27,596 bases of DNA from a virus. The notes under the pieces are model-generated. The model was given only the letters and a program-made list of their open reading frames with translations, ran no database searches and was not told the origin of the DNA. Positions 3,492-26,024 of the stretch are shown piece by piece. The number at the start of each line of letters is the position of its first letter. Within the stretch, counting starts at the first letter, position 1. The DNA is taken from positions 1-27,596 of the IMG/VR virus record IMGVR_UViG_3300030102_003635. One strand, 5' to 3'. The position numbers and the translations under genes are program-made.

Positions 3492-6400
3492 TATGTTAAT
3501 CTTGTTCTTTGGTTTTTTCTGTACCTTTGTTCTAAAGGATCTAACAATATCTCTTCTGCTGACGTAAGTCCAGTTACAGGATCAATGTTAGTATTTTGTT
3601 GTCCAACAAAACCTGGAGCTCCGGTCATTGCTGTTGTTGCAGGGTTATTACCAATTATTTGATTAGCTTGTGCTACTGCATCTGGTAATAAATTAGTTCT
3701 AAATGGATTTTGTATATCTGGAAATAAATCTCCTGTTAAATTTGTATCATATAAAACATCTTTAATTCTATCAATTACATCTTCTGCTTGTTCAAAAGGA
3801 TTTGCTACTCCTAATTCAGAAGCTTTTATTTCAAAAATATTTTTGACATCTTTTGAAATTGATAAAGGTCTAAACTCTCCTTCATTTATAAAATTAAATG
3901 CTTTTTTTTCTCCCCTGTTAATCATTCTTTCAGCTAAAGAATCTTCATTCATTCCTAAAATTTTAGCGGCTTCCATGTCTAAATACATTTCTCTATTAAT
4001 TCCATATAAAGCTCTATTTGCATTTATATATGCATCAACGATTTGTTCAGGTGTTACCACACCTCCTTTTAAAGTAGCAGATGTAAATAGATTTCTAGAA
4101 TTTCTTACTCCTTTTTTATAATCAGTAATTTTGTAATTAAAAGATTTAGTAGGATCTACATCAACTCTTCGTAGTCCTGCAATACCTGCAAGTTCATTAC
4201 CAAGATCATATTGATTACCTCTCTCATCAAACCTACCTAAACTATCTACGGGTTTAATTGCTAAACCAATTCTTTGCATTTGTTTCCAGTTTAATGGCAT
4301 TTGTGTATCTACTAAATGACTAATTGATTTTGACATTTTATCTCCAATCGCATCCTCTGGATTCCAAAGAGATCTTCCTTCTCTTGTTCTTCCTCCTCTT
4401 ACAAATATATCTGCTAGTCCTTCTGTCCAAATAGATTCACTAATAAAAGGTGAACCTAATTCTTTGGTAGATTCAAACATACCTAAAACAAAATCATCCA
4501 CTAATCCATCTTCATCAGCTCTACCAGCATTAACTTTATTTAATACAGTTTGTATTGGTCTTGTAACAGTGTCGTATGCATTTAAGTGTGAGAAATCTAC
4601 GTAAGATAATTTACCATCTTCATCTTTAAATGGCACAAGTACAGAATTTTTAGACCAGTCTGCAACATATCTTCTCATTGCATCAATTTCTTCATCTGCA
4701 ATATCATATACTGCCTGTGCTGCTGCAACTGTACCAAGCGGTAATGCAGCCGTAGTTAATGCCATACCAGTTAATCTTTGTATGCCTCTTTTTCTTAATG
4801 GGTTTACAGTTTTACCATTAATAACTGTAGAATAATTAATTTCTTTTAATGCAGTCTCAACAATGTTTGCACTTGTTCTAATAATCTCTGCAGGAAAAGC
4901 TACAAAGTTTCCAACAGGTAGTTGTCTTAAACCTTTAATAAAGTCTGATACAAAAGCATAGTTAGGTACATTATTTTTTACCATATCAGCTGCTGCTCTT
5001 TTTAAATACTGTTCGTTATATATTTGTTTAGCACCATTCATATCAATAAATTCCATACCATCTCTTAAACCTGCATTTTTAAATGAAGTATTTAATTTAG
5101 ATTTTTCTCCTAGATATGTAAATATTTTCCAGAAATCATCCTCTGCTGTGTAGTAATCTTCAGCACCTCTTTTTATTTTTTTAAGACCTTTAAGAAATCT
5201 ACCTAAACCATAATCACTATTTAATCTGTTTAAGGTTCCACCAAAATCTACATCCTCCAATAGATCAGCTACTTGTTTTAATTGTACGTTAGAGTTTACT
5301 ACTCCAAGTTCTAATAGTTCTTGATAGAATGCATTGTTTTTTCTACCTCCAATAACAGGAGCTTGTAAAGAATTCCAAGCTTTTTTAACATCATCTATAT
5401 TGCCAAAGGGTAAATGCCCGTTAGCTGCAGCAAACGCTGTAGCACTAATAAAATTTCTTGCGTGAGTAAATGGTGCAAGAATTGTTTTAGACATTTGAGA
5501 CAAACCTTTAGGATACAAAATCATACTATTATAAAGTTGTCTTGGAAAACTTTTTCCAGAATTTTGTGTGCTTTTAAATGCTTCCGCATAATCTTTTAGT
5601 GCAAACTTACCTTGTAAAGGATTAACTAGTTGTTCTATTTCTCCTTTAGCATTTGTTCTTATTATTTCGTCGTCATCTATATTTTTTATAAAAGCTTTTT
5701 CATCAGTCCATTTATCTATACTAAATGATGCACCTTTATCTGTAGACACAATTTGTTTAAAATCATCAGGAGTTCCACCTGCATATTTCATTGCATCTCT
5801 TTTGCTATTATATAAAAAAGGAATTCTAGGTTCTGTTCCAACTCTACCACCCTCTAACCACGCATCATAATCTGCTTTTAATTTATTATTTTTTAATATT
5901 AAATCATCAAAAAATTGAGCATTTCTAACTTGTGAAGATAAATTAGCTGTACCTTCTACAATAGAAGACATAGGATTTTGTGCTTTACCTAAAAGTTTTT
6001 GTATGACAGGTTTTGCAACACCACTTAATTCTTCTAAATTAGCTGTTGCTGGATCCGATATAGTTTTTTGTGTAATTTTATCTGCTAAAGATTTAGTCAT
6101 AAATGCAGGGACATTTCCTAATCTTACTTGTCCTGGAGCTCCTACTCCAAGTCTAAATCCTTTAGGCATTTCTGCCCCTTTCCAAACACTATCAACCATA
6201 TCTCTTGCAAGATCATCATTAAGTTTTAAACCTTTTTGTGCAGCAATGTCTTGAAATTCTTTTACGGCTTCTTTAATTAAAGTTTTTGTAGGTCTAATAT
6301 TATCTGCAATTGTAATAGGATTATTTCTAAATACTTCATATCCTCTATCTAACACATCATTAATATATTTAGGTAACATTGTTTCAAATGTTTTAAGAGC

Positions 6401-7555
6401 TTCAGGATTAAATCTTCTACCCATGCCTGTAAATAATTCAGCCCATTTATCTCTAACTGTATCAAACTGATCAAACATTTTTGTAATATCTTCATCACTT
6501 GCCTTGTATTTATTTTTTAAAAGTTTTCTTAAAGCTTCTTTTTTAGCAGTAGGTATTGATTCTATTTGTACGTCATACAATTGTTTACCTGTTTTAAATT
6601 CTTTTCCTTTTGCATCTAATTTAATTTCGTCTACTGTTTGAAAAATAGGTTTTAATTTACCATTTGTAGCTGTTCCGGACATCAACACATCATTCATTTC
6701 TTTAACAATACCTTTTTTAGCTTCTTGAAAAGGAATTTTATTTACCGCAACTTTTCTATAACTGTTGGTTATTTTATCGGCTATCTTATCTATATCTCTC
6801 ATAGCTATATCACCGACGTTAGTGTCTCTAGCTATTCTTCCAGCCATTGTATTTTTTGCATCAAAACCTTCCATGGTTTGAAGTCCATTAGATCTAAACC
6901 AACTATCTAGTTTATCTATTCCTTTATCTAATCCACGCTTCGCTTTATTTGTTCCACGCACCTCTCTCATTTTACTAACTAATTTACCAGCCGCGCCAAA
7001 CGCACCAGTAAATGCCATACCTTCTACACCAAATTTTAATCTGTTCATTAATTCGTTGGCAGCACTATCATCATCTCTGTCTATTTCTGTAGGACCTCCC
7101 ATAAAATCACCAAAGGTTCCTGCTTCTTGCACGTCACCAACTGTAACACCTTCAGCAACACCAGCAGCGGCTGCGCCTTGTGCAAATCTTCTAGATTTTT
7201 CACCTCTACTTAAATAAGTTCCAGCTTGTTTTGCTTTGAGTGCAGCTTTACCTAAACCACTAGCCGCTTTAAATGCTACACCACCTGGTACACCAATATT
7301 AACTATAAGTTCTGTAATTTTACCAATACCTGTTGAAGCTGCTATTTCATCAAATGGATTTATTTTGTCAAAATATTCTTCTACTGCTTCTACTCTATCT
7401 TTATCTACTCCTAAATCTAATAGCGCTGCACCAAATGTTGCAGTTCCTTCTACAATTTTTATAACACCCGAGGGTACGGCTGCTGCCATAGATAGAGCCC
7501 AATTAGGCCTGTCTTCTAAATTTTTTTTAATTCTTTCGTCAGGAATATAAACCAT
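3491..7555 (-). CDS. Very large internal virion (DNA ejection) protein candidate (1354 aa)
   Basis: At 1354 residues this is the largest product in the window. It is mostly helical, with Ala/Gly-rich amphipathic stretches near the N-terminus (VPSGVIKIVEGTATFGAALL; AQGAAAAGVAEG). A hydrophobic segment lies near residues 930-950 (GMALTTAALPLGTVAAAQAV). I see no transglycosylase, protease or nuclease motif. It is the last and longest gene of a four-gene cassette downstream of the tail genes and just before the lysis genes. In T7 the long gp15/gp16 ejection proteins are also the last large virion genes before fibre and lysis genes. Internal virion function is therefore inferred from size, composition and order. 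The start ATG 7555 has AGGAG six bases upstream. Confidence 0.7.
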   Translation of the reverse strand: MVYIPDERIKKNLEDRPNWALSMAAAVPSGVIKIVEGTATFGAALLDLGVDKDRVEAVEEYFDKINPFDEIAASTGIGKITELIVNIGVPGGVAFKAASGLGKAALKAKQAGTYLSRGEKSRRFAQGAAAAGVAEGVTVGDVQEAGTFGDFMGGPTEIDRDDDSAANELMNRLKFGVEGMAFTGAFGAAGKLVSKMREVRGTNKAKRGLDKGIDKLDSWFRSNGLQTMEGFDAKNTMAGRIARDTNVGDIAMRDIDKIADKITNSYRKVAVNKIPFQEAKKGIVKEMNDVLMSGTATNGKLKPIFQTVDEIKLDAKGKEFKTGKQLYDVQIESIPTAKKEALRKLLKNKYKASDEDITKMFDQFDTVRDKWAELFTGMGRRFNPEALKTFETMLPKYINDVLDRGYEVFRNNPITIADNIRPTKTLIKEAVKEFQDIAAQKGLKLNDDLARDMVDSVWKGAEMPKGFRLGVGAPGQVRLGNVPAFMTKSLADKITQKTISDPATANLEELSGVAKPVIQKLLGKAQNPMSSIVEGTANLSSQVRNAQFFDDLILKNNKLKADYDAWLEGGRVGTEPRIPFLYNSKRDAMKYAGGTPDDFKQIVSTDKGASFSIDKWTDEKAFIKNIDDDEIIRTNAKGEIEQLVNPLQGKFALKDYAEAFKSTQNSGKSFPRQLYNSMILYPKGLSQMSKTILAPFTHARNFISATAFAAANGHLPFGNIDDVKKAWNSLQAPVIGGRKNNAFYQELLELGVVNSNVQLKQVADLLEDVDFGGTLNRLNSDYGLGRFLKGLKKIKRGAEDYYTAEDDFWKIFTYLGEKSKLNTSFKNAGLRDGMEFIDMNGAKQIYNEQYLKRAAADMVKNNVPNYAFVSDFIKGLRQLPVGNFVAFPAEIIRTSANIVETALKEINYSTVINGKTVNPLRKRGIQRLTGMALTTAALPLGTVAAAQAVYDIADEEIDAMRRYVADWSKNSVLVPFKDEDGKLSYVDFSHLNAYDTVTRPIQTVLNKVNAGRADEDGLVDDFVLGMFESTKELGSPFISESIWTEGLADIFVRGGRTREGRSLWNPEDAIGDKMSKSISHLVDTQMPLNWKQMQRIGLAIKPVDSLGRFDERGNQYDLGNELAGIAGLRRVDVDPTKSFNYKITDYKKGVRNSRNLFTSATLKGGVVTPEQIVDAYINANRALYGINREMYLDMEAAKILGMNEDSLAERMINRGEKKAFNFINEGEFRPLSISKDVKNIFEIKASELGVANPFEQAEDVIDRIKDVLYDTNLTGDLFPDIQNPFRTNLLPDAVAQANQIIGNNPATTAMTGAPGFVGQQNTNIDPVTGLTSAEEILLDPLEQRYRKNQRTRLT

Positions 7556-14598: not shown

Positions 14599-15048
14599 TT
14601 AATAAGGTTTTATTGGTGTCCACACCATTGTTGCTCCTGGTATAATTTCATTCCAAGTTATAACTCCTGCATTTCCTGTTGCTAGCGTTAATGGAACTTT
14701 AAGGTTCGTTACATTAGCTGTACCTGTTATTGTAACAGTTCCAGTCTTAATAGTCAACGCGTTTCCAACAGATGCTACATTAGCATTACCAGAAACAGTA
14801 ACATTTCCAGTGCCTAAAACTAAAGGAACTTTTAATCCTGTAACATTAGCCGTTGTAGATAAAGTTACAGTTCCTGTACCTAATGTTAATTTAGTCGGAC
14901 TTGGATTTGCTACAGAAGAAGTTCCTGCAACAGTAAAAGGTCCTATAGTTGCAGTTAATCTATTTTTTTGTGCTATTACTGTAACGCTAGAAGCCGACGA
15001 TATTGATGATATCGCTGTTTCGGCAAATGAAGCAAATCCGAAAAGCAT
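14599..15048 (-). CDS. Beta-repeat virion protein (149 aa)
   Basis: After a hydrophobic Ser/Ala-rich N-terminus (MLFGFASFAETAISSISSAS) the protein is built from a 22-residue beta repeat, with units at residues 54-75, 76-97 and 98-119 plus a partial copy at 120-126. A degenerate unit lies at 31-53. Each unit carries 'L-x-x-x-TG-x-VT-x-x-x-x-ANV' and often ends LKVP. A small beta-solenoid or stacked fibre element is a reasonable inference. The C-terminus (WNEIIPGATMVWTPIKPY) breaks the pattern and may cap or anchor it. The ATG has AGGAG eight bases upstream, within the end of the preceding gene. Confidence 0.75.
   Translation of the reverse strand: MLFGFASFAETAISSISSASSVTVIAQKNRLTATIGPFTVAGTSSVANPSPTKLTLGTGTVTLSTTANVTGLKVPLVLGTGNVTVSGNANVASVGNALTIKTGTVTITGTANVTNLKVPLTLATGNAGVITWNEIIPGATMVWTPIKPY
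14671..14958 (-). repeat. 22-residue (66-base) tandem protein repeat
   Basis: Three clear units, one degenerate N-terminal unit and one partial C-terminal unit share the phase of 22 codons. Shared positions are Leu1, Gly6, Val8, Thr9, Asn15 and Val16. The copies are diverged in DNA, so the duplication is not recent. Confidence 0.7.
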
Positions 15049-15051
15049 GGT

Positions 15052-15324
15052 CTATGCTCCTGTCAGTGCTTTTATCTCAGCGTCGGTTAATCCTAGATCT
15101 TTTAGTTTTTGTTTGCCAGATGCTTTTTCTGTTTCTTCTGCAGCATTTTGCTCTTCAGCACTAGGATATTGAGCAATCTTAGCTTCTATGTCTGCTGCTG
15201 GTATGGGTGTTGTGTCCTCTAACCATTCAATATTTTGAATATCATTATCTCTAATCGCATATTTTGCATTAGGATTTATTTCTAAAATTGCTTTAACAAT
15301 TAAATCTATATGCTCTATTGCCAT
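15052..15324 (-). CDS. Probable tail-fibre assembly or XkdW-like protein (90 aa)
   Basis: The start was placed at ATG 15324, not 15372, because it overlaps the stop of the previous gene as TAATG and GGAGG lies upstream. The product has NPNAKYAIRDNDIQNIEWLE, then TTPIPAADIEAKIAQYPSAE, and a charged helical C-terminus (LKDLGLTDAEIKALTGA). The 'Y-x-I-x-D-x-D-x-x-x-I-x-W' strand followed by 'PI-x-x-x-[ED]-I-x-A-K' resembles XkdW-type and small chaperone-like proteins encoded after phage fibre genes. It follows the 168-residue fibre-like gene, which fits. The role is inferred. Confidence 0.7.
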   Translation of the reverse strand: MAIEHIDLIVKAILEINPNAKYAIRDNDIQNIEWLEDTTPIPAADIEAKIAQYPSAEEQNAAEETEKASGKQKLKDLGLTDAEIKALTGA

Positions 15325-15830
15325 TATTGTTCTACCTCCATAACAACTAAAGTTGTTGGAGCATTTTGCCATGAATAAGAAATATTACTTCCAAATCCAT
15401 TAGTTTGCACAGAAACTGTTTCTGCACCACTCCAACAATCGTGAAAACCAACACAAGTTATATTTCCTCTAGTATCACTTTCACTTTCTGGATAACCTTC
15501 ATTTTCAGATTTACAATTAGTTGCTGAACTACCTACATAAACTCTTATTGCAGCTGCAGAGCCAGTTCCAGCATCTGCTTTTCTAATTTGAGCGCAGTTT
15601 GCAAACAACATAACTTTGTTTGATGAGCTAGTAGGTGTAAATGATAAAGATGTAATAACAGTTGCACTAGAAGGTGTAACTACTGTTGTGCCTACAGATT
15701 GAGCTACTTGCACTATTTTACCTGCCTTAAAGCTAGTTGCACCTGTACCACCATTAGCTGCTGGCAATGTTCCTGTAACATTGCTTGCTAAATTTAATGA
15801 TTGATTTGGTCCTAGTCTAGTTATTGCCAT
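15324..15830 (-). CDS. Fibre-like virion protein (168 aa)
   Basis: The N-terminus contains NVTGTLPAANGGTGATS (residues 18-34), a motif widely seen in phage tail fibres. A beta-rich domain follows with paired cysteines and an aromatic C-terminus (ISYSWQNAPTTLVVMEVEQ). The strand order resembles a C1q-like or related jelly-roll, but it lacks the 'YRFTP..AGKY' core of the six neighbours. It follows block B of the C1q-like genes and precedes the small chaperone-like gene. The start has AGGAT upstream. Confidence 0.65.
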   Translation of the reverse strand: MAITRLGPNQSLNLASNVTGTLPAANGGTGATSFKAGKIVQVAQSVGTTVVTPSSATVITSLSFTPTSSSNKVMLFANCAQIRKADAGTGSAAAIRVYVGSSATNCKSENEGYPESESDTRGNITCVGFHDCWSGAETVSVQTNGFGSNISYSWQNAPTTLVVMEVEQ

Positions 15831-15838
15831 AATTTATC

Positions 15839-16447
15839 CTATGTTATAATTCTGTATGCTCCAAAATGTGTTGCTCTTGCATATTGACTATCACTTTCAA
15901 GAAGTTGTCCACTACCACTTGAAGTATTTATCCTTGCATAAAGTTCAACATAATCAGAAGAACCATTCATATTTATAACTATACTTCCAGTTACATAATG
16001 AAGTCTAATTTTAACGTTTGAAAAATCAGTTTGTGATTCTAAAATATTAGAACTTCCATTAAATTTAAAATACAAATAATCTTCAATTAAATCGTCATTT
16101 GATCCAGCTTCATATTGAATTGCACCATACACAAAATATTTACCAGCAGTTTGAGGAGTAAATCTATATGTGCTTGTATCGTAAGCACTATCAGTATCAT
16201 AAACTTCTGTATTTGCTTGAACTAAAGTAAGAGTATTGTCAGAAACAGATTGACCACCACTACCACCTAAATATGCTTCAAAAGCTGGAGTATTAGTTCC
16301 ACCAACAGCGGCACCATTGTTCTGTAATGTCCCTATGATATTTGTCGTGTCACCAGATGCACCGATAGTAATAGTATTACCACTTTCGTTGATAATGTTA
16401 TTACCGTCTGTGTCCTGTATCGTGTCTGCTTTTAATATACTTGTCAT
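15839..16447 (-). CDS. C1q/TNF-like fibre head protein, block B copy 3 (202 aa)
   Basis: The N-terminal stem (residues 1-45, DTIQDTDGNN...ITIGASGDT) precedes a C1q/TNF-like jelly roll with the core YRFTPQTAGKYFVYG at 94-108, NGSSDYVELYA from 161, and the closing strand FGAYRIIT at 195-202. C1q-like domains form trimers and commonly make receptor-binding tips in phage fibres. The assignment here rests on the spacing of these strands. It overlaps copy 2 by one base (TAATG at 16447). It is the most length-expanded of the six paralogues, with a longer loop after QYEAGSNDD. Confidence 0.75.
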   Translation of the reverse strand: MTSILKADTIQDTDGNNIINESGNTITIGASGDTTNIIGTLQNNGAAVGGTNTPAFEAYLGGSGGQSVSDNTLTLVQANTEVYDTDSAYDTSTYRFTPQTAGKYFVYGAIQYEAGSNDDLIEDYLYFKFNGSSNILESQTDFSNVKIRLHYVTGSIVINMNGSSDYVELYARINTSSGSGQLLESDSQYARATHFGAYRIIT

Positions 16448-16971
16448 TATGCTCCTATTTTATATGCTCCCAGATAATTATTTATACTACCACCATTTAA
16501 AGTTACATTAGAAGAATCACTTGTGTCTTGATAAACAAACAATTCTAAATAATCAGATGATCCATTCATATCAACAACACCAGTAACTTCTTTTCCTTCT
16601 TGTGCTCCTCCAGATGCATTTCCATTATGTCCTAAACTAAATAAAAGACTACCATTTTTATAAATTCTAACCGCACCAAAATTAAAAGTATTACCTGTTG
16701 AATACCATTCTGCATTTCCATAAACTAAATATTTACCAGCTTCTGTAGGTGTAAATCTGTATAAACTTGTATCATAGCAACTATCAGTATCAAAAACTTT
16801 AGTATTAATATTTAATTTTGTAGCCGTAGCGTCTGCTACAGTTTGATTAGAACCTAAATAAGCTTGAAATGCTGGTCTATTAACATTAATAGTTACACCC
16901 GATCCAATAGTAATGTTACCAGATCCTGCGCTGTTTGTTATTGTTCCTACTTTTAAAGTTCCGTCTGCCAT
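16447..16971 (-). CDS. C1q/TNF-like fibre head protein, block B copy 2 (174 aa)
   Basis: This has the same layout as its neighbours: a short stem with NITIGSGVTI, RPAFQAYLGSNQTV at about 32-45, the core YRFTPTEAGKYLVYG at 71-85, DMNGSSDYLELF near 134-145 and the closing LGAYKIGA. It is among the shorter copies. The DNA resembles copy 3 in patches, consistent with old tandem duplication. It starts four bases after the previous stop, and the ATTATGGC context is shared with several paralogues. Confidence 0.75.
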   Translation of the reverse strand: MADGTLKVGTITNSAGSGNITIGSGVTINVNRPAFQAYLGSNQTVADATATKLNINTKVFDTDSCYDTSLYRFTPTEAGKYLVYGNAEWYSTGNTFNFGAVRIYKNGSLLFSLGHNGNASGGAQEGKEVTGVVDMNGSSDYLELFVYQDTSDSSNVTLNGGSINNYLGAYKIGA

Positions 16972-16975
16972 AATA

Positions 16976-17536
16976 TTATTCTATAATTTTGTATCCACCA
17001 AAATTTGTTCCTTTATTATTACTTCCAATTTCTATTCCATATGAACCAGCATGATCTACTGCACCATATAATTCTACATAATCTCCTACTGATAAATCTA
17101 AAACTGCCTGAATTGTGTTTGTTGAAATTCTTGTTGGATTAGCTTGAAAATTCATTCTGTTTTCCAAATATATTGAACCATTTAAATAAAATGCAGCAAA
17201 GACATTGTTCAAATCAGAATTACCAAGTACTTCACCTCTAACTGAAGCATAAAGAAAGTATTTCCCCGCCTCGCCACTTGGAACTGTAAATCTTGAACTT
17301 CCAAAACAAGTACCAACATCAAATACTTCTGTTCCTAAAGTTACTTTAGTGTAAGTATTATCTGACACACCAGTTTGATCTGATGCAGAATGAGCAAAAA
17401 AAGCTGGAGTGTTAATTGGAAAGTTTGTAAGAGTAGCACCAGATTTTAATGTAATTGTAGATGTATTACTATCTCCAATTGTAAGCGTACTGCTTCCAGA
17501 TATATTATCAATTGTGTTTGTCTCTAACTTACTCAT
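16976..17536 (-). CDS. C1q/TNF-like fibre head protein, block B copy 1 (186 aa)
   Basis: A stem with TLTIGDSNTSTITLKSGATL is followed by NTPAFFAHSASDQTGVSDNT and the variant core SRFTVPSGEAGKYFLYA at 81-97. It ends FGGYKIIE. The core carries a two-residue insertion relative to block B copies 2 and 3 and matches the 'NRFVVPTNEAGLYNVSA' core of block A copy 3. This suggests two subtypes that occur in both blocks. It overlaps the MAYVG protein by one base (TAATG at 17536). Confidence 0.75.
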   Translation of the reverse strand: MSKLETNTIDNISGSSTLTIGDSNTSTITLKSGATLTNFPINTPAFFAHSASDQTGVSDNTYTKVTLGTEVFDVGTCFGSSRFTVPSGEAGKYFLYASVRGEVLGNSDLNNVFAAFYLNGSIYLENRMNFQANPTRISTNTIQAVLDLSVGDYVELYGAVDHAGSYGIEIGSNNKGTNFGGYKIIE

Positions 17537-17991
17537 TATAAAATTACGAATGTACTCCCTGACGGTATAGTCACTGTACCACTAACTGTAACAGGACCAA
17601 CTAACGCGCCGTTAGTAGAACCTGCCATCGATATACTTGTAAACGTCTGACTGTTTTTCATAAAAAATGTTGAACCTAAACTTGCTGCGGTCACCGTCGA
17701 GTCCGTCGGCGTTCCGATGTCAAACACATCACCAAGAACTGTACCAAAGAAAGTATCTGATGATGCTGGGTTTGAACTAAAAGAAATCTGCGAACCTGTT
17801 ATTGTGAATGCCGCTGGATCTTGTACGACTCCTGAAATAGAGATTATACAATTAGCTTCGTTACCTGGAGACACAGCTGTCCCGTTAACCGTTAAGTTAA
17901 ACGGTCCTGGTGTTGATCCGGTGAATGACCCTGATATGTCATCCAATATCTGATACGCTCCTGTTTGAGGAGCTTTTCCAACGTAAGCCAA
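17536..17991 (-). CDS. MAYVG-type fibre adaptor protein, block B, TTG start (151 aa)
   Basis: This 151-residue protein is a paralogue of the 147-residue product at 21262-21705. Both begin with 'MAYVG-[KN]-AP', continue with a beta domain built around a 'VYV-G-x-x-x-DP'/'ISGVVQDP' hairpin, and end with a 'G-P-V-x-x-x-x-T-V' strand pair (GPVTVSGTVTIPSGSTFVIL here). Related N-terminal modules attach phage fibres to the tail. It starts at TTG 17991 with GGAG eight bases upstream. Three hand-counted 60-base lines are 40-47 percent GC, higher than the flanking C1q-like genes. Confidence 0.7.
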   Translation of the reverse strand: MAYVGKAPQTGAYQILDDISGSFTGSTPGPFNLTVNGTAVSPGNEANCIISISGVVQDPAAFTITGSQISFSSNPASSDTFFGTVLGDVFDIGTPTDSTVTAASLGSTFFMKNSQTFTSISMAGSTNGALVGPVTVSGTVTIPSGSTFVIL

Positions 17992-18003
17992 TTGTTAATC
18001 TCC

Positions 18004-18354
18004 TTATTCAGTTGGGATCGGGTTTGCAGTCTTAACAGCAGCTACATGGTCTTTCCATGTGCTTGTACCGTCGACAGAATCGTGGTACTGCATGTCGAGC
18101 TGTGAGCCCAGATCACCGTAGGCGTTTTTTCTTGTAGCTCTAACTGCATTTTGTCTCTCTTCGAGATCTGCAGCAGAGTCCACAGCATTCAGTTGCTCTG
18201 CAGTAGGTTGAGCTACACCTGACACATTCCATGCCTTGATGTAAGGTCCCTGACCGTTCGAGTCATCCTGAAGCAAAACGTCTGTCATGAAGTCTACATT
18301 TGCTACGCCGTTGTTAGCGCAGTAAGTTTTGACCTTGCTTGATAGTGATGCCAT
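18004..18354 (-). CDS. Hypothetical protein of atypically high GC (116 aa)
   Basis: The 116-residue product is helical and soluble, with paired segments YCANNGVANVDFMTDVLLQD and AVDSAADLEERQNAVRATRK. It ends HVAAVKTANPIPTE. I recognise no family with certainty. Small proteins of this size between fibre genes are often assembly factors, which is only inferred. Three hand-counted lines (18061-18240) total 89 of 180 G+C, about 49 percent, against roughly 17-35 percent in sampled neighbouring lines. Recent transfer is therefore likely. The ribosome site is strong (AGGAGG, seven bases before ATG 18354). Confidence 0.75.
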   Translation of the reverse strand: MASLSSKVKTYCANNGVANVDFMTDVLLQDDSNGQGPYIKAWNVSGVAQPTAEQLNAVDSAADLEERQNAVRATRKNAYGDLGSQLDMQYHDSVDGTSTWKDHVAAVKTANPIPTE

Positions 18355-18366
18355 AGTTTTTCCTCC

Positions 18367-18537
18367 TTATTCTACGTTATCTATAACAGTGTTTCCTTCT
18401 GAAATCCACTGTTGAATTTCTTGGTAATCTGTGTTTGCTTCGTCTAGTGGTACAAACCAAATCTTATTATCTGATGTAGTCATTTTATAACTTTTAAATA
18501 TTCCATCTACATAAAATTTTTCTACTGTACTAATCAT
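18367..18537 (-). CDS. Short fibre-assembly-like protein (56 aa)
   Basis: The frame runs from ATG 18537 to a TAA at 18369-18367 and fills most of the 185-base space between two annotated genes. GGAG lies eight bases upstream, overlapping the last codons of the fibre gene. The product has VPLDEANTDYQEIQQW and then ISEGNTVIDN. The pattern 'VPxDxxNxDYxxxxxWxxxGNT' is that of very common small phage proteins near fibre genes, often tied to tail fibre assembly. That link is from memory. It is easily missed because of its length. Confidence 0.8.
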   Translation of the reverse strand: MISTVEKFYVDGIFKSYKMTTSDNKIWFVPLDEANTDYQEIQQWISEGNTVIDNVE

Positions 18538-18539
18538 AA

Positions 18540-19643
18540 TTATAACTCCGAATTTAATTCTATTTTACTACTAGTTGTATTAAATCTCATATACAAAGCA
18601 TCACTAGCTGAACCACTTGCAGAAAAAGCATTAAAATAAAATAAACTACTTTGAGTTCTTTGAGTGTCAAAATACATGGTAGTTGTTGTTCTATTTCCAG
18701 GATCAACTCTTACTGTTCCTGTAAATGAAGTGCTTGGATTAGCTCTTTTTGGATAATATTTAAGTACTGTTCTTGCATCAGTATTTGTGTCTGCACAAGC
18801 AATACCAATCCAATACATTTCACTATCAGGATCTCCAGAATTATCAAATTTTTCATAATATCTTCTGCATCTATTAAAATTCACATCATGTGGCAAGAAC
18901 TCAAAATCAGATGCTGCTGTTCCAGCTTCTAATTGTAATCCTGTAATGTACCATTCGTTTGATGTGCTATCTCCAAGATTAACTTGACCAACTGCCCTGT
19001 TTGCAGATACTTGAGAACCCCAGTCTGTTTGTAAAGTTCCAGATGTATTACTGCTTCCAGCAGCTAACCATAAATTTAATTCTAAACTAGCTCCATTGTC
19101 ATTGCTTAAGCCACCTGATGTATCTCCAGGATAAGTTATGGTTTTCTTTTCCCAAGTGTTAGCAGATGAGATTGTGTAAGATTTTGAGATATTTCTAGTG
19201 TTATCTGTATCTCTAAATTCAGCAATATAAGTTCCTGTTTTTGCAGACTTAACCCAAAAAGATAATGTTAAACTTTCAGCAGTTGATCTACCTTTATTTA
19301 GATATATTAAATTTTGACCTTCAAATCTTTGTGTTATGTGAAGATAGCCACCACTTCCTGTTGATGTGCAATCCATTTTTAAAGACTTTCCAAAACCTTG
19401 ACCAGTTGGAACATCTGTTGATTGAGATTGTGTCCAAGTTCCATTACTTCCTAGTTCAGTAACAAATCTATCTATTGTTTTATATGTGCTACTTGAAGTA
19501 AGAGAAGAAACCGAAGTCGATCTTTGAGCAATGCTCATATCTCCATTGATGATGATGTTTCTGAAGTTGATATTATCAGCAATCAAACTTTGAGGCATTT
19601 GATTCTCTACCATATTTGCTAAATCTATTTTACTTAATGCCAT
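18540..19643 (-). CDS. Tail fibre with carbohydrate-binding-like domain (367 aa)
   Basis: The N-terminus holds RNIIINGDMSIAQRSTS (from residue 28), the usual start of marine phage fibres with a carbohydrate-binding-module-like jelly roll. The domain runs through LTLSFWVKSAKTGTYIAEFR (from residue 125) to WYITGLQLEAGTAASDFEFL (231-250). A second beta domain follows after the NRCRRYYEKF linker. 'LTLSFWVKS' and 'ITGLQLE' are typical of CBM-type folds. A surface-glycan binding role is inferred from the fold. It sits between block A of the C1q-like genes and the 56-residue assembly-like gene, as expected of a fibre with its helper. Confidence 0.8.
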   Translation of the reverse strand: MALSKIDLANMVENQMPQSLIADNINFRNIIINGDMSIAQRSTSVSSLTSSSTYKTIDRFVTELGSNGTWTQSQSTDVPTGQGFGKSLKMDCTSTGSGGYLHITQRFEGQNLIYLNKGRSTAESLTLSFWVKSAKTGTYIAEFRDTDNTRNISKSYTISSANTWEKKTITYPGDTSGGLSNDNGASLELNLWLAAGSSNTSGTLQTDWGSQVSANRAVGQVNLGDSTSNEWYITGLQLEAGTAASDFEFLPHDVNFNRCRRYYEKFDNSGDPDSEMYWIGIACADTNTDARTVLKYYPKRANPSTSFTGTVRVDPGNRTTTTMYFDTQRTQSSLFYFNAFSASGSASDALYMRFNTTSSKIELNSEL

Positions 19644-19646
19644 AAT

Positions 19647-20186
19647 CTATGATCCTATTAATTTGTGTCCTGTTAAATATGTACAAAAGTTACTTCCCCC
19701 AGAACCTGTACCATCGATGTCTAAATTTCCACCACTTCCATTGTAACAAAATACTTCTAAATAATCTCCTACTACAAGATTAACCACCGCAGTTATACTT
19801 GTTGTTTCCCTAAACTCACTTCTTATTCCATTAAATAAGAAATCAGAACCATTTTTTTTAATGTAAAGATAAAAACTATCAAAGTCAGTTGATGACATAT
19901 TTCTTATTGAAGCAGAAACATTATACAAACCCGCCTCATTGGTCGGAACCACAAATCTATTATTACTTGTATCAAAAGCATTATTTGTATCAACAAGTGT
20001 ATTATCTAATGTTATTTTAGTTGAAGCAGCATTTGAAATCGTTTGGTCTGCTGATAAATTAGCAAAAAAAGCTGGAGTATTTTTTAACCCAACAGCATTA
20101 GGAGTCACAACACCCGCACCATCAGACGTTAAAATGCTGTTACCGCCAAAGTCCTGTAGTTGATTTGCTTTTATAATTGATGCCAT
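19647..20186 (-). CDS. C1q/TNF-like fibre head protein, block A copy 3 (179 aa)
   Basis: The stem (ANQLQDFGGNSILTSDGAGV) is followed by NTPAFFANLSADQTISNAAS and the core NRFVVPTNEAGLYNVSA at 76-92. VVNLVVGDYLEVF lies near 134-146, and the C-terminus is GHKLIGS. The core subtype (two-residue insertion, 'VVP') and the 'LVVGDYLEVF' strand pair it with block B copy 1 (LSVGDYVELY) rather than with its direct neighbours. The stop/start linker GGATCATAGATTATGGC resembles that of the next copy. Confidence 0.75.
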   Translation of the reverse strand: MASIIKANQLQDFGGNSILTSDGAGVVTPNAVGLKNTPAFFANLSADQTISNAASTKITLDNTLVDTNNAFDTSNNRFVVPTNEAGLYNVSASIRNMSSTDFDSFYLYIKKNGSDFLFNGIRSEFRETTSITAVVNLVVGDYLEVFCYNGSGGNLDIDGTGSGGSNFCTYLTGHKLIGS

Positions 20187-20188
20187 AA

Positions 20189-20707
20189 TTATGATCCTAA
20201 CCTAAATGCTGAAAAAAATGTTCTGTAATTATTACTTAAAATACCCATGTTTGATCCAGCTTTTGCACCTAATTCAAAATAATCTGAACCATTTGCTTCT
20301 TCTACTGCATGAACAGGCGACCTACCAGCCCAAGTGCCAGAGTTTAATTCAATTATATTTTCACTAACTCTTGAACCATTTTTTAAAATAGAAACTTCTA
20401 AATATGTTTCATATTCCCCATTACCAAGATTACCAATAAAACAATACTTACCTGCAGGTGGTGTAAATCTATAAGTGCTTGTATCAAAATGTCCGCCAAT
20501 ATCAAAAACCTCACTGTTTATTTGAACAACAGTTAATGTATTTGCAGTAATAGTTTGACCACTAGACATTATTGCTTTAAAAGCAGGGTAGTTTTGACCT
20601 GTCATCGTAGCACCACTTGACACTGATATAGTATCTCCAGAACTACCCAGGGTTACTGTGCCGTTGTTAGCGATTGGTTCTATATTTGTTGTTTTAATTG
20701 TTCCCAT
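20189..20707 (-). CDS. C1q/TNF-like fibre head protein, block A copy 2 (172 aa)
   Basis: The stem contains GTVTLGSSGDTISVSSGATM, then YPAFKAIMSSGQTITANTLT and a shortened core YRFTPPAGKYCFIG at 79-92. NGSDYFELGA is near 140-149 and the end is FSAFRLGS. It is the shortest of the six paralogues and lacks one residue in the core turn. The fold assignment is as for its neighbours. The start ATG 20707 lies four bases after the preceding stop, with only a weak ribosome site. Confidence 0.75.
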   Translation of the reverse strand: MGTIKTTNIEPIANNGTVTLGSSGDTISVSSGATMTGQNYPAFKAIMSSGQTITANTLTVVQINSEVFDIGGHFDTSTYRFTPPAGKYCFIGNLGNGEYETYLEVSILKNGSRVSENIIELNSGTWAGRSPVHAVEEANGSDYFELGAKAGSNMGILSNNYRTFFSAFRLGS

Positions 20708-20711
20708 AATT

Positions 20712-21260
20712 TTATGTTAATATTCTGTAAGCTCCCCAAATTGTTCTAGTTCCTTTTATGTTTCCTGAATTACCACTAGCTTGATATGCATTTACAGTTA
20801 AATAATCACTTGAACCATTCATATCTACAATACCGTGGTATGTTAAAAAAATACCTTCAATACTATCATCTGAACTAGATAAATTTTCGAATATATTTAA
20901 AATTCTTGCACTAGGAAGAGTAGATCCATTTTTTAAAACTTCTGATGATGCATAATAAAAACCTGCGCTAACATCTATATTACAAGTAACATAAACAAAA
21001 TATTTTCCAGCTACGCTAGGTGTGAATCTGTAATTAGATGTATCAAAATCTGAATCTGAATCAAAAGTTTCACCATCCCAAGCTATTACTGTTGTAGTAT
21101 CGTGACTTAAAGTTTGATCACCAGATAAAAACGCTTGAAAAGATGGATTTAAAAAACTTGGTTTAGCTCCTGTTGCAGTAGTAATGGTATCTCCAGAACT
21201 ACCTATCTCTAAACTTGTTCCTGATTGTGGGTCTACTTTATCTACAAATAATGTTGCCAT
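20712..21260 (-). CDS. C1q/TNF-like fibre head protein, block A copy 1 (182 aa)
   Basis: The stem has SLEIGSSGDTITTATGA, followed by PSFQAFLSGDQTLSHDTTTV, the core YRFTPSVAGKYFVY at 77-90, VDMNGSSDYLTVNAY near 147-161 and the closing WGAYRILT. By core and closing strand it groups with block B copies 2 and 3. It starts one base after the stop of the MAYVG protein (TAATATG), so the block is probably translated as a coupled unit. Confidence 0.75.
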   Translation of the reverse strand: MATLFVDKVDPQSGTSLEIGSSGDTITTATGAKPSFLNPSFQAFLSGDQTLSHDTTTVIAWDGETFDSDSDFDTSNYRFTPSVAGKYFVYVTCNIDVSAGFYYASSEVLKNGSTLPSARILNIFENLSSSDDSIEGIFLTYHGIVDMNGSSDYLTVNAYQASGNSGNIKGTRTIWGAYRILT

Positions 21261-21261
21261 A

Positions 21262-21705
21262 TTATACTACCGTTAATGTTCCATTCACTGTGACTGTTGC
21301 TGTAAATGATACTGGACCACATAACATCATGTTATCTGATGCGGCCACTGTTATTGATTCTGAAACTGTTGCTAGATTTTTATATCCACCGTTTATTGCA
21401 GAAATCATTCCTGCTTGAATGCTGTTTGCTCCTGGTTCAACATTACCGACTGATTTACCTTGAAACACTACATAGATATTTCCAGTTCCTGTTGGAGGGG
21501 CCGCTGTAAAAGCTAAAGTTGTACCACCAGATATTGAGTAAGCTGAAAATGGATCTTGTCTAACGTTTCCAACATAAACTTCTACTTCTGCTGTGTTGGC
21601 CACACTTTGTGAAAGTGTAAAATTTGTTTGTGAATTATCACCGTTGAACTGTTGAGAGTTCATGGTGTTTAAATTTTGTTTCGGTGCATTTCCTACATAC
21701 GCCAT
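21262..21705 (-). CDS. MAYVG-type fibre adaptor protein, block A (147 aa)
   Basis: The 147-residue protein begins MAYVGNAP and has QFNGDNSQTNFTLSQSVANT and EVYVGNVRQDPFSAYSISGG. This is the common phage fibre/tail-attachment beta module ('FNGDGSxTxFTL...VxVxGVxQxPxxxYxxxG'). The C-terminus (MMLCGPVSFTATVTVNGTLT) is a beta hairpin shared with the 151-residue paralogue and with other marine phage surface proteins. It precedes three C1q-like genes exactly as its paralogue does. AGGAG stands seven bases before ATG 21705. A role as a base for the C1q-like heads is inferred. Confidence 0.75.
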   Translation of the reverse strand: MAYVGNAPKQNLNTMNSQQFNGDNSQTNFTLSQSVANTAEVEVYVGNVRQDPFSAYSISGGTTLAFTAAPPTGTGNIYVVFQGKSVGNVEPGANSIQAGMISAINGGYKNLATVSESITVAASDNMMLCGPVSFTATVTVNGTLTVV

Positions 21706-21713
21706 GATTACTC

Positions 21714-22052
21714 CTATGAACTTATTGCATCAACTGTAGACATCCAGACACTTAATGAACTTGGAGTATCTGATTGTGCCTTAACTACGTCTCCGTTTTG
21801 CATTACTAATTTACTTCCGCCGTCAATTAATTCTAAAGATCCGCCACTAACTATCGGCGCATTTTTGATTATGTAGTGGTTTTGAGAACCACCTGTTACT
21901 GAAGATGTTATAAATACGTCTGCATTTATTGTTGATGTTGTTATATTTGCAAGACGAATAGAAATTATAGCATCGTTAGAATTACTAGTATGAATAGTGA
22001 CTGCTGATGTTCCTACGTCTTGATCTCCGAATCTTTTAAAATCTTGTGCCAT
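21714..22052 (-). CDS. Small beta-rich structural protein candidate (112 aa)
   Basis: This is a 112-residue, Ser/Thr/Ile-rich protein with alternating strands (SAVTIHTSNSNDAIISIRLA; INADVFITSSVTGGSQNHYI). It ends with a LSVWMSTVDAISS strand. Size and layout recall the 110-residue product at 11129-11461, though I cannot align them convincingly by eye. It lies just upstream of block A in transcription order. AAGGAAT lies before the ATG. Probably a virion accessory protein. Confidence 0.65.
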   Translation of the reverse strand: MAQDFKRFGDQDVGTSAVTIHTSNSNDAIISIRLANITTSTINADVFITSSVTGGSQNHYIIKNAPIVSGGSLELIDGGSKLVMQNGDVVKAQSDTPSSLSVWMSTVDAISS

Positions 22053-22067
22053 AATTTATTCCTTATA

Positions 22068-23075
22068 CTATAACGCGATTGCCATTGCAACGGCAAAACC
22101 CGCTGAAGCTCCCGCTGTTCCATTAGATGCTGCTGTTACTCTACCTTTTGCATCTACTGTAATTGATGAATTTGTATAACTAGCTGCTGTTACTCCAGAG
22201 TTAGCTAGTGTTAGCGCTCCACCAGATGCTATTGTTGCATCACCCGATACTGCTGATTCTTGATAACTTGTACCATCTGCAACTAATATTTTAGCAGACG
22301 TATTGTCTGGCATTCTTAACTGTGATCCAACTGTTAAATTTCCATTTACATTATTAGATACCGTGTTTGCAAAGTTACCCATGTAGCCATGAGAAGAACA
22401 TTGATAATATAAAACATTTGGTGTGTTAACATCAACGGCTATTTGTGTATACGCACCAGATGATCCTGGCGTACCATTAGTAGTTACACCTGTTGTATAA
22501 GCTGTAGATTTATCTGCTTCTAAATAAAATCTTAATGGGTGTCCACTATTTGTAGAATCTGATTGATCAAATCTATAGTAATATTTATAAGATGCATCTG
22601 CTCCTGTAAAAGTAATCGCAGGAGATTCAAGACCTCCTAAATAATAAGCATTTGAAGAACCTTGACCTGAATAAGGATGAGTAGATGTTTTGCTTGCAAC
22701 TGTAACAGTAATTAATTCTGGTGCAGATGAAGAACCATATTCAACTGGACTAGGTAAATTAGCAATAGTTGCAGGCAATGTACAAAATACATCTAGTGTA
22801 CTTGAACCACCTGAATTAAAATTTATTTTTGAAGTGGTACCTGCAGAGTTACTTAAAACTATTGTTCTTTCTAAAGTTGTAGAACCTGAAAGAGTTCCTA
22901 ACCCTACTTCAAAATTTGCTGTGCCTTGTTCAGAGATAGTGTAATAAGTTGTGTTAGAAGTTGCAATACCACTATTAAAAGTTATAAAACCCTGTACTGC
23001 ACCTGCAAGAGTTATATTACCCGTGCCTTGTGATGTACTAGTTTCTCTTACTCTATCATTTAAAACCAAAGCCAT
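22068..23075 (-). CDS. Virion protein with cupredoxin-like domain and possible copper ligands (335 aa)
   Basis: Three parts are visible. An N-terminal beta module (about 1-105) begins ALVLNDRVRETSTSQGTGNI and is frequent in marine phage structural proteins. A middle domain (about 119-245) has YYRFDQSDSTNSGHPLRFYL, YTTGVTTNGTPGSSGAY and VLYYQCSSHGYMGNF. A C-terminal fibre-type segment contains SITVDAKGRVTAASNG. The middle domain follows a cupredoxin pattern. H179 precedes the last strands, and C226, H229 and M232 sit in a 'C-x2-H-x2-M' loop like the copper loop of plastocyanin-type proteins. Metal binding is inferred, not shown. It lies upstream of the fibre blocks, so it may be part of the tail or fibre base. 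Confidence 0.7.
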   Translation of the reverse strand: MALVLNDRVRETSTSQGTGNITLAGAVQGFITFNSGIATSNTTYYTISEQGTANFEVGLGTLSGSTTLERTIVLSNSAGTTSKINFNSGGSSTLDVFCTLPATIANLPSPVEYGSSSAPELITVTVASKTSTHPYSGQGSSNAYYLGGLESPAITFTGADASYKYYYRFDQSDSTNSGHPLRFYLEADKSTAYTTGVTTNGTPGSSGAYTQIAVDVNTPNVLYYQCSSHGYMGNFANTVSNNVNGNLTVGSQLRMPDNTSAKILVADGTSYQESAVSGDATIASGGALTLANSGVTAASYTNSSITVDAKGRVTAASNGTAGASAGFAVAMAIAL

Positions 23076-24283: not shown

Positions 24284-24921
24284 TATCCGTTTACTACCTC
24301 AAGTGTTACAGGTCCTGCTGAACAATTTGTTCCTCCACCTTTTATATTACCTGATGTTGCATTACTAGTGCTAGTTATATGAAAAAAATTTATTGGATTA
24401 GTTATTGGATCAGATGTTGTTGCTCCAGTAATATTACCAGCAGCATCTATTTGTCCTAATGCAATTGTAAAACCATTTGCATTATTTAAATCACTTACAT
24501 TATCAAAAGTTGGAATGTTAGCAAATGATTGTAAATTTCTTAAGTCAGCTGGATCAGAACCTCCAGGTCCAGAACTTGTTACTTGTGGTGGTCCTCTAAA
24601 TCTTACAATAGAACCGGCAGCTCTTTGATGATTTTCTGAAAAAACATTTACATAAGTTACACCACCAGAAATAATAGATGTAAATGGATTATTATCTAAA
24701 AGTATTAAACTTGTTTTTGATGAAGGTTGTGGTCTTGGATTATATAAAGCTTGAGGATCTGAACCTACAGGTTTAGGACTTAACTGTGGTTGTTTCGCTT
24801 CAAACTCTGAAGTGTGAACTAAAGATCCATTCCATTCTCTAACCATTTCAGAATATGGATATACCATTCCTGATCTGTCAGAAATTGCTAATGCATGTTT
24901 ACCAGAAGCATACTTACCCAT
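24283..24921 (-). CDS. Conserved head/tail structural protein 'ISDRSG...EWNG' family (212 aa)
   Basis: The N-terminal region GKHALAISDRSGMVYPYSEM, then VREWNGSLVHTSEFEAKQPQ and DPQALYNPRPQPS, is a well-conserved signature of small phage virion proteins found beside connector genes. The family has no function known to me. The C-terminal half is Ser/Gly/Asn-rich and beta-like, with a possible surface role. Both ends use TAATG overlaps, placing it between the two connector candidates in one coupled cluster. Confidence 0.75.
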   Translation of the reverse strand: MGKYASGKHALAISDRSGMVYPYSEMVREWNGSLVHTSEFEAKQPQLSPKPVGSDPQALYNPRPQPSSKTSLILLDNNPFTSIISGGVTYVNVFSENHQRAAGSIVRFRGPPQVTSSGPGGSDPADLRNLQSFANIPTFDNVSDLNNANGFTIALGQIDAAGNITGATTSDPITNPINFFHITSTSNATSGNIKGGGTNCSAGPVTLEVVNG

Positions 24922-26024
24922 TATACTCCATCTCCATAAAATGTTTGTGGTGAAATGAAAGTAGATGTACCTTGATTGTCTGCATCAAGTGCTCTTAATA
25001 ATTCACTTTCATATCTTCGCTCTAATTCTTGACTCAATTCTGGTGAATATTTCATACTTAAGTAATAAGCTAAACCAGACATCATACAAGGATAGAATCT
25101 ATTTACTACATCTGATGTATTATTATATGCACCTACATCTTGAATTTTAGATAAATAATAAAAACAAAATTGAAAATTACTTGGTGTAGTTGTACTAGAT
25201 ACACTTGAACTTGGTGTTGTATATAAAAATATACTTGGGTTTAATTTTCTTTCTACATAGTATTGTGATGGTGTGCCTTTAGCTAATTTGTTTGGAGTTT
25301 GTGAATATGTAGATCTATCTATTTTAGTTAATGCAATATCTTGAGTGTCTGTAGTTGTAGTATTATTTCTGTAGTATGCTTCTAATACATCACTAATGTC
25401 ACTTGGAAAATTTTCTGAATCTGATGCAAAATTATATTCTGCTTGTCCTTCAACTAAAGGAACTTTAGCTAGTTTTACTTTCCATAAATGAACACCTCTA
25501 TTTCCCCATTCTTGAAACATAATATTTAAAGAACGTCTTGCTGATCTTAATTGATAACCAGTTCTAGTTCCTCTTACACCAGTTCTTTCAAATGCTTCTT
25601 CTATAATTTCATCTATTTGTGGATTAAATTCAGTAGTTTCAGAAGTAGGAGAAATAGTTTGAGCAGTATTACCCATGCCAGATGTAGTTGTAGCTCCCGA
25701 ATTATAATAAAATAATAAAGGTGCTCCGACTGTTCTTACAGGTGCAACATTAATTGTTGTTTTTGCTCCTGTAGATCCCGGAGTTCCTGTGTGAGTAACT
25801 CCTGTTGTATATTCTGTTCCACCAGTTGTAAAAGTTCCATCTTTAGTTGCAGAAAAAGAAAATTTAAAATTAGTATTAGAACTATCAGAGGTATCAAATA
25901 TAACAGTATCACCCTCTTGTAAAAATAATACAGGACTTACTTCTCCGTTAATAAAAAATTTATTAGCAGTTCCAAAAGCGTTTGTTCCCGATGCTACGGT
26001 TACTGTATAAGTTAGTGTAGCCAC
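24921..26024 (-). CDS. Connector/adaptor protein with N-terminal degenerate cupredoxin-like domain, GTG start (367 aa)
   Basis: Residues 1-123 form a beta domain (VLFLQEGDTVIFDTSDSSNT; EYTTGVTHTGTPGSTGAKTT; LLFYYNSGATTTSGMGNTA) that clearly parallels the cupredoxin-like domain of the 335-residue protein. The histidine position is Phe53, and the Cys and loop His are absent. Residues about 130-367 are a connector-like domain (EIIEEAFERTGVRGTRTGYQ, LRSARRSLNIMFQEWGNRGV, PCMMSGLAYYLSMKYSPELS) of the kind found in head-tail adaptor or tail accessory proteins (P22 gp4-like, from memory). The frame starts at GTG 26024 with AGGAG six bases upstream. Confidence 0.75.
   Translation of the reverse strand: MATLTYTVTVASGTNAFGTANKFFINGEVSPVLFLQEGDTVIFDTSDSSNTNFKFSFSATKDGTFTTGGTEYTTGVTHTGTPGSTGAKTTINVAPVRTVGAPLLFYYNSGATTTSGMGNTAQTISPTSETTEFNPQIDEIIEEAFERTGVRGTRTGYQLRSARRSLNIMFQEWGNRGVHLWKVKLAKVPLVEGQAEYNFASDSENFPSDISDVLEAYYRNNTTTTDTQDIALTKIDRSTYSQTPNKLAKGTPSQYYVERKLNPSIFLYTTPSSSVSSTTTPSNFQFCFYYLSKIQDVGAYNNTSDVVNRFYPCMMSGLAYYLSMKYSPELSQELERRYESELLRALDADNQGTSTFISPQTFYGDGV

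Follow-up and report, generated by a model that had tools for sequence, protein, structure and literature searches.

The DNA analyzed here is a 27.6-kb virus record of the IMG/VR database (IMGVR_UViG_3300030102_003635; 34.7% G+C), below called the window, which carries on its minus strand two arrays of genes for putative receptor-binding proteins (RBPs). Each array opens with a short protein beginning MAYVG, a candidate tail adaptor, and continues with three C1q-like genes and one fibre-like gene, which we call heads and number by slot (A1 to A4 and B1 to B4; Table 1). A reading of the sequence alone had picked out both blocks, and every gene that it named is present where it had been placed, on the minus strand; it had overlooked an XkdW-like gene between the arrays, whose position just upstream of adaptor B is conserved. 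The structural genes of the window are closest to those of phage 023Pt_psg01 (79% for a 733-aa protein), followed by pelagiphages HTVC027P (47%) and HTVC023P (45%). Judged by these similarities, the window is very probably a fragment of an HTVC023P-type pelagiphage, an ocean phage the host of which, by inference, is probably a SAR11 bacterium.

Table 1. Features of the two arrays (positions in the window; 'address' denotes the N-terminal stretch of about 22 residues of a head)
Feature	Position	Strand	Address	Evidence
Adaptor A (MAYVG protein, 147 aa), opens array A	21262..21705	-		phrog_18673 tail fibre, E 1.4e-11
Head A1 (C1q-like, 182 aa), array A slot 1	20712..21260	-		phrog_15750, E 1.4e-8; address conserved
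Address A1	21195..21260	-	MATLFVDKVDPQSGTSLEIGSS	common to slot-A1 heads in other phages
Head A2 (C1q-like, 172 aa), array A slot 2	20189..20707	-	20642-20707, MGTIKTTNIEPIANNGTVTLGS	phrog_15750, E 1.2e-11
Head A3 (C1q-like, 179 aa), array A slot 3	19647..20186	-	20121-20186, MASIIKANQLQDFGGNSILTSD	PF00386, 23.7 bits, at cut-off
Head A4 (FA fibre-type, 367 aa), array A slot 4	18540..19643	-	MALSKIDLANM...	phrog_4492 tail fibre, E 7.1e-51
Small gene cA1 (56 aa), accompanies FA heads	18367..18537	-		gene order in relatives
XkdW-like protein (116 aa), between arrays, directly upstream of adaptor B	18004..18354	-		PF09636, E 1.8e-12; phrog_9114, E 1.4e-30
Adaptor B (MAYVG protein, 151 aa, TTG start), opens array B	17536..17991	-		phrog_18673, E 6.3e-53
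Head B1 (C1q-like, 186 aa), array B slot 1	16976..17536	-	17471-17536, MSKLETNTIDNISGSSTLTIGD	phrog_15750, E 1.4e-4
Head B2 (C1q-like, 174 aa), array B slot 2	16447..16971	-	16906-16971, MADGTLKVGTITNSAGSGNITI	predicted C1q fold (AlphaFold2)
Head B3 (C1q-like, 202 aa), array B slot 3	15839..16447	-	16382-16447, MTSILKADTIQDTDGNNIINES	body 92% to L260 B1 head
Head B4 (FB-type, 168 aa), array B slot 4	15324..15830	-	15765-15830, MAITRLGPNQSLNLASNVTGTL	slot-4 address
Small gene cB (90 aa), partner of FB heads	15052..15324	-		phrog_9114, E 6.8e-7
U149, conserved gene ending array B	14599..15048	-		marks where complete B blocks end in relatives

Relatives of both adaptors and of one backbone gene were collected from IMG/VR, open reading frames (ORFs) were called, families were assigned and gene order was listed; complete blocks were deduplicated by their first head. 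Complete blocks hold exactly four head genes, both behind the short form of adaptor A (26 out of 26) and behind adaptor B (56 out of 56). The repeat unit is an adaptor plus four heads, present twice, and not the adaptor plus three heads, six heads in all, of the sequence-only reading. The fibre-like genes at 18540-19643 and 15324-15830, which had been taken for followers of the blocks, carry slot-4 addresses of their own and are the fourth members of their arrays, so that the window contains eight head-type genes. Truncation or interruption of head ORFs accounts for an apparently deviating head count in one relative (L114) and for odd N-termini in two others (L090 and L139); the address that belongs to the slot is present upstream in each. 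In this, all 26 and 56 blocks agree with the tailspike protein (TSP) complex of Ackermannviridae, in which each of four receptor proteins is specific to one position. The cultured phages HTVC115P and Lederberg EXVC029P, each of another lineage, also carry adaptor B followed by four heads, and in Puniceispirillum phage HMO-2011, likewise cultured, four heads apparently go with each of two MAY-like adaptors. In the annotation of these three phages, most of the genes appear as hypothetical proteins or putative tail fibre proteins.

The slots differ in the N-termini of their heads. Read by column, heads in array A begin with MATLFVD (A1), MGTIKTTN (A2), MASIIKANQLQDF (A3) and MALSKID (A4), and heads in array B with MSKLETN (B1), MA(D/N)GTLKV (B2), M(T/S)(S/A)ILK(V/A)D (B3) and MA(I/L)TR(L/I)G (B4). 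We then assigned slots by nearest neighbour on the first 22 residues, with no chosen motifs and with reference heads taken only from other loci and having unrelated bodies. The correct slot out of eight was retrieved for 495 of the 499 heads, that is, a short conserved N-terminal peptide precedes otherwise divergent RBPs, as expected of docking peptides. With labels shuffled within blocks, the best of 1000 permutations reached 166, and the head body alone gave 149 out of 499. HTVC115P and Lederberg were left out of the reference set when their own heads were scored: their eight addresses all went to the slot expected, in seven cases unanimously. The HMO-2011 addresses have diverged, and clear recognition in place is limited to slot 4 of one array, the others being ambiguous. 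No XD domains, which two of the four Ackermannviridae tailspikes contain, are present in the heads: the addresses lead directly into stalk and head, and heads of 172-202 aa are too short to hold such domains.

Behind the addresses, heads are exchanged. We observed 38 pairs of heads (score ratio above 0.75) in which the same head stands behind different addresses, with DNA homology extending from codon 7-53 (median 34) to within 21 nt of the stop codon (median 0). The body of head B3 in the window, for example, is 92% identical to that of a slot-B1 head in L260, and DNA homology starts at codon 51. The sister contig L086 shows the extent of replacement between close relatives. Genes T1-T5, both adaptors, the XkdW-like gene and U149 are 93-100% identical to those of the window, and the A1-A3 and B1-B3 addresses 91-100%, against just 30-52% for the six corresponding bodies; B4 is of another type and A4 alone is the same, which amounts to seven of eight heads replaced. 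FA heads also pass between unrelated phages: the FA head and its small gene (18395-19565) share 90.8% DNA identity with gp37-gp38 of Pelagibacter phage HTVC100P, a different, 34.6-kb pelagiphage, which points to a recent transfer of head and putative helper. The cassette has no strong inverted repeats (the best being 29 nt at 72%) that would suggest phase variation by inversion. In the comparison with L086, we also noticed that the small gene T6 (21714-22052), which immediately precedes adaptor A, shares no more than 53% identity with its counterpart, with neighbors at 93-98%; it seems, from this identity, to have been exchanged as well.

The six C1q-like heads of the window form one family (all 15 pairs related, 27-39% identity, E-values from 1.7e-7 to 6.7e-25), and all six match phrog_15750 (E-values from 1.4e-4 to 1.2e-11). 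Only A3 attains the cut-off of the Pfam C1q family PF00386 (23.7 bits in the genome search, 23.2 in a second search), the other heads being below it or unmatched. Head B2, which has no Pfam match, is predicted by AlphaFold2 (AF2) to adopt a C1q fold (predicted local distance difference test, pLDDT, 88.8; Z score of 16.8 to C1QL1/C1QL3, 2.1 A over 127-128 residues). This agrees with the C1q-like fold proposed from the sequence alone, and we consider the heads to have the C1q jelly-roll fold, by structure prediction for B2 and by sequence similarity to B2 for the other five. Head types vary among relatives and comprise C1q, FB (often with cB), FA (with cA1) and others. The small gene seen after each block in the sequence-only reading does exist, but it goes with the type of head and not with the block: cA1 follows FA in 30 out of 31 cases, whether in slot A4 or B4, and cB follows FB in 65 out of 92. 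We regard cA1 as a probable assembly helper for FA-type heads. Weak Pfam matches of the PF15218/SRP68 type to FB and cB were put down to chance.

Adaptor A has 147 relatives in IMG/VR, the best 80 of them at 76-99% identity, and adaptor B is likewise conserved (74-99% across the best 80 loci). The adaptor has a sequence match to fibre gp28 of cyanophage P-SCSP1u (E=2.7e-13), and adaptor A matches the T7 tail-fibre N-terminus family PF03906 weakly, under the cut-off (E=0.022). In a moderate AF2 model of adaptor B, residues 11-87 resemble, at borderline scores, residues 187-250 of CBA120 TSP4 (Z=8.2), residues 157-249 of a 602-residue T4 baseplate chain (Z=6.1) and the N-terminus of T7 gp17 (Z=5.3-6.5). 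The T4 chain is presumably gp10, judged by its length. As modeled, the adaptor domain may resemble folds that anchor or dock fibres in T7, T4 gp10 and CBA120 TSP4. Two allelic forms of adaptor A occur in relatives (for example, L096, L104 and L118): a short form of 147 aa with slots 1-3, and a long form of about 310 aa with its own fused head. In 27 out of 29 blocks, a single separate head stands after the long form, with an address usually starting MAIDK or MAISK. The two forms correspond to a fission or fusion of adaptor and heads. In array A, adaptor distance tracks the distances of addresses 2 and 3 (r=0.70 and 0.77) and not those of bodies 1-3 (0.03-0.09).

The sequence-only reading proposed an old segmental duplication, with copies shuffled or the triplet older than the duplication. 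The two MAYVG proteins are indeed paralogous (28% identity over 157 aa, E=1.8e-7), and the addresses match in register: for all four, the array A profile best matches the array B profile of the same rank (hhalign E-values of 1.5e-7, 1.2e-6, 4.6e-12 and 1.5e-6 for slots 1 to 4), and this pairing is the best of 24. Because of this register and of the adaptor paralogy, an old duplication of the whole adaptor and four-slot array is likely, on present sequence comparisons. The proposal finds no support for the heads themselves as duplicated units. They fail the test that the sequence-only reading had set, under which copies grouping with proteins of other phages and not with each other would refute it. 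Each head of the window has 17 to 91 heads scoring above the best one in the same window, and in a tree built from 110 heads the slot labels are nearly random (64 changes versus a shuffled mean of 69.5) and window heads are scattered. Judging from these comparisons, head bodies do not pair across blocks and do not share the duplication history of the arrays; the idea of shuffled copies is supported. Locus L171, excluded from the in-register test, has (4264-7065) an A1 head directly followed by heads with B2-, B3- and B4-type addresses; this could reflect a natural in-register deletion that joined the two arrays, or else a chimeric assembly.

We think it likely that the window encodes two homologous slot-addressed receptor-binding arrays, each consisting of a tail adaptor and exactly four heads, some with a small helper gene, in a podovirus similar to HTVC023P-type pelagiphages. 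The N-terminal domain of the adaptor would bind the tail, and each address of about 22 residues would dock its own head at a single fixed position, either on the adaptor itself or on a neighboring head. We infer docking by the address since K1-5/SP6, KP34-type phages and Ackermannviridae hold their receptor proteins by the N-termini. All eight heads are probably made together, as the genes are tightly packed on the same strand and no convincing terminator was found between array genes, and would be displayed on the virion. Recombination just behind the address would then swap the recognition domain and leave assembly undisturbed. An old duplication of adaptor and four slots was probably followed by many independent head replacements.

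The most serious alternative is that slots 1-3 encode a single obligate heterotrimeric fibre, like C1q chains A, B and C, with slot 4 as a separate fibre and the long adaptor, with its fused head and no slots 1-3, as the homotrimer version. Each array does have three similar addresses and one different, and the single separate head after most long adaptors looks as though the fused gene had replaced slots 1-3. Furthermore, similarity between heads of the same block slightly exceeds chance (0.196 versus 0.184, p=0.022; 0.164 versus 0.148, p=0.011). Yet slots 1-3 are not all C1q in 40 out of 65 B blocks, the head type in slot 1 is associated neither with that in slot 2 nor with that in slot 3 (Fisher p=0.67 and 0.26; for slots 2 and 3, p=0.019, uncorrected), and near-identical heads change slots. 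Head types in slots 1-3 vary largely independently, which does not support the heteromeric trimers suggested from the sequence alone. An obligate heterotrimer is not favoured by this mixing of types, and we hold it to be unlikely.

It is much less probable still that the conserved 5' ends are chiefly DNA recombination handles or translation-start features, with interchangeable heads lacking a fixed place. Swaps do start just behind the conserved 5' end. However, synonymous sites in the addresses diverge and amino acids are held: the ratio of nonsynonymous to synonymous differences (pN/pS) is 0.26-0.44 with pS of 0.22-0.54, and this constraint at the protein level shows the addresses to be more than mere DNA handles and contradicts a handle-only role. 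Besides, a shared handle would neither differ among eight slots nor fix their number at four. Least credible of all is a recent segmental duplication of an adaptor and three heads as units, which would account for a gene order that occurs twice and for paralogous adaptors but is already contradicted for the heads, unpaired and nearer to those of other phages. Adaptors A and B are each conserved in dozens of phages and only about 30% alike to each other, so that the duplication is old.

Several observations weigh against the addressed arrays that we prefer. The adaptor model is of moderate quality (pLDDT 76.5) with borderline fold matches (Foldseek E-value of 0.07 or worse, Z about 8), and in the B2 model the address and stalk are predicted with lower confidence (64-70) and lack secondary structure. 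Correlations of adaptor and address distances are weak in array B (0.09-0.27), and the relatives from which our counts derive are not independent samples.

Other contents of the region were recorded as well. In one relative (L141), a 471-aa gene starting VNVVIVGGGTAGWSTALAFSQ is inserted in the receptor region, with the single head on one side and the XkdW-like gene on the other; we take it, by its motif, to be flavin-dependent halogenase-like. In the close relative 023Pt_psg01 (L002, 9472-17095), the array interval instead contains three structural proteins of about 460-473 aa and genes for endonuclease V and a 2OG-Fe(II) oxygenase, and can thus be filled in a wholly different way. Upstream of the arrays, the structural genes at 22068-23075 and 24921-26024 are related through a stretch of about 130 aa that forms a common domain (37%, E=1e-10); they both match phrog_27200 and make another internal paralogue pair. 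An SNF2-type helicase at 1161-2627 resembles the helicase domains of ZorD and DpdE (ZorD model, E=1.8e-41) and also matches phrog_62; it is probably a phage replication helicase and not a defence system.

Whether the arrays represent a general addressable platform for receptor display across several SAR11-type phage families is, in our opinion, evenly balanced. Such a platform would offer four non-equivalent docking positions per short adaptor and eight different heads at defined places per virion, and phage populations would take these heads from a shared pool through recombination behind the address. With the address rule, receptor heads can be recognized in a sequence, each can be given its place and its exchangeable part told from the rest; hypervariable islands turn into a limited set of interchangeable heads, open to counting and to matching with hosts.

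Pelagiphage C1q receptor candidates, docking peptides and four-part receptor complexes are already known. Mizuno et al. (2014; PMC3909814) described C1q-domain genes in hypervariable islands of HTVC010P-like pelagiphages, beside tail fibre genes, with a better conserved N-terminus, and proposed that they bind receptors; in contrast to the present arrays, these genes were described singly, and that account contains neither a slot code nor a fixed number, pairing of arrays or exchange of heads. In the literature searched, coverage of which was incomplete, we found no description of a fixed four-slot code, paired arrays or head exchange behind addresses, no link between HMO-2011 and C1q tail fibres and, beyond Mizuno et al., no C1q receptor binding in SAR11 phages; a study of 80 HTVC023P-type genomes (PMC9599517) mentions neither tail fibres, C1q nor receptors.

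Parallels come from other phages too. In K1-5/SP6, with adaptor gp37, and in the anchor-branched RBP systems of Klebsiella KP32/KP34-type phages, a domain similar to T7 gp17 and T4 gp10 characterizes the adaptor or anchor; short conserved N-terminal peptides of 7-29 residues dock further RBPs to it, and C-terminal recognition domains are exchanged (PMC6872550). Those phages carry two, rarely more, large enzymatic RBPs, whereas the window has two arrays of four small, mostly C1q-like heads and eight addresses. Ackermannviridae such as CBA120 and S117 also have four receptor proteins, TSP1-TSP4, with position-specific N-termini and swapped C-termini (PMC11414711, PMC8432352), and attempts to include a fifth proved unstable (PMC11414711). 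Their tailspikes are positioned by XD/TD domains within the tailspikes themselves, unlike the peptides of about 22 residues, separate adaptor, two homologous arrays and C1q-like heads found here. HTVC115P and Lederberg have the same four addresses behind adaptor B but one such array only; being cultured (on HTCC7211 and HTCC1062, respectively), they make the address rule testable.

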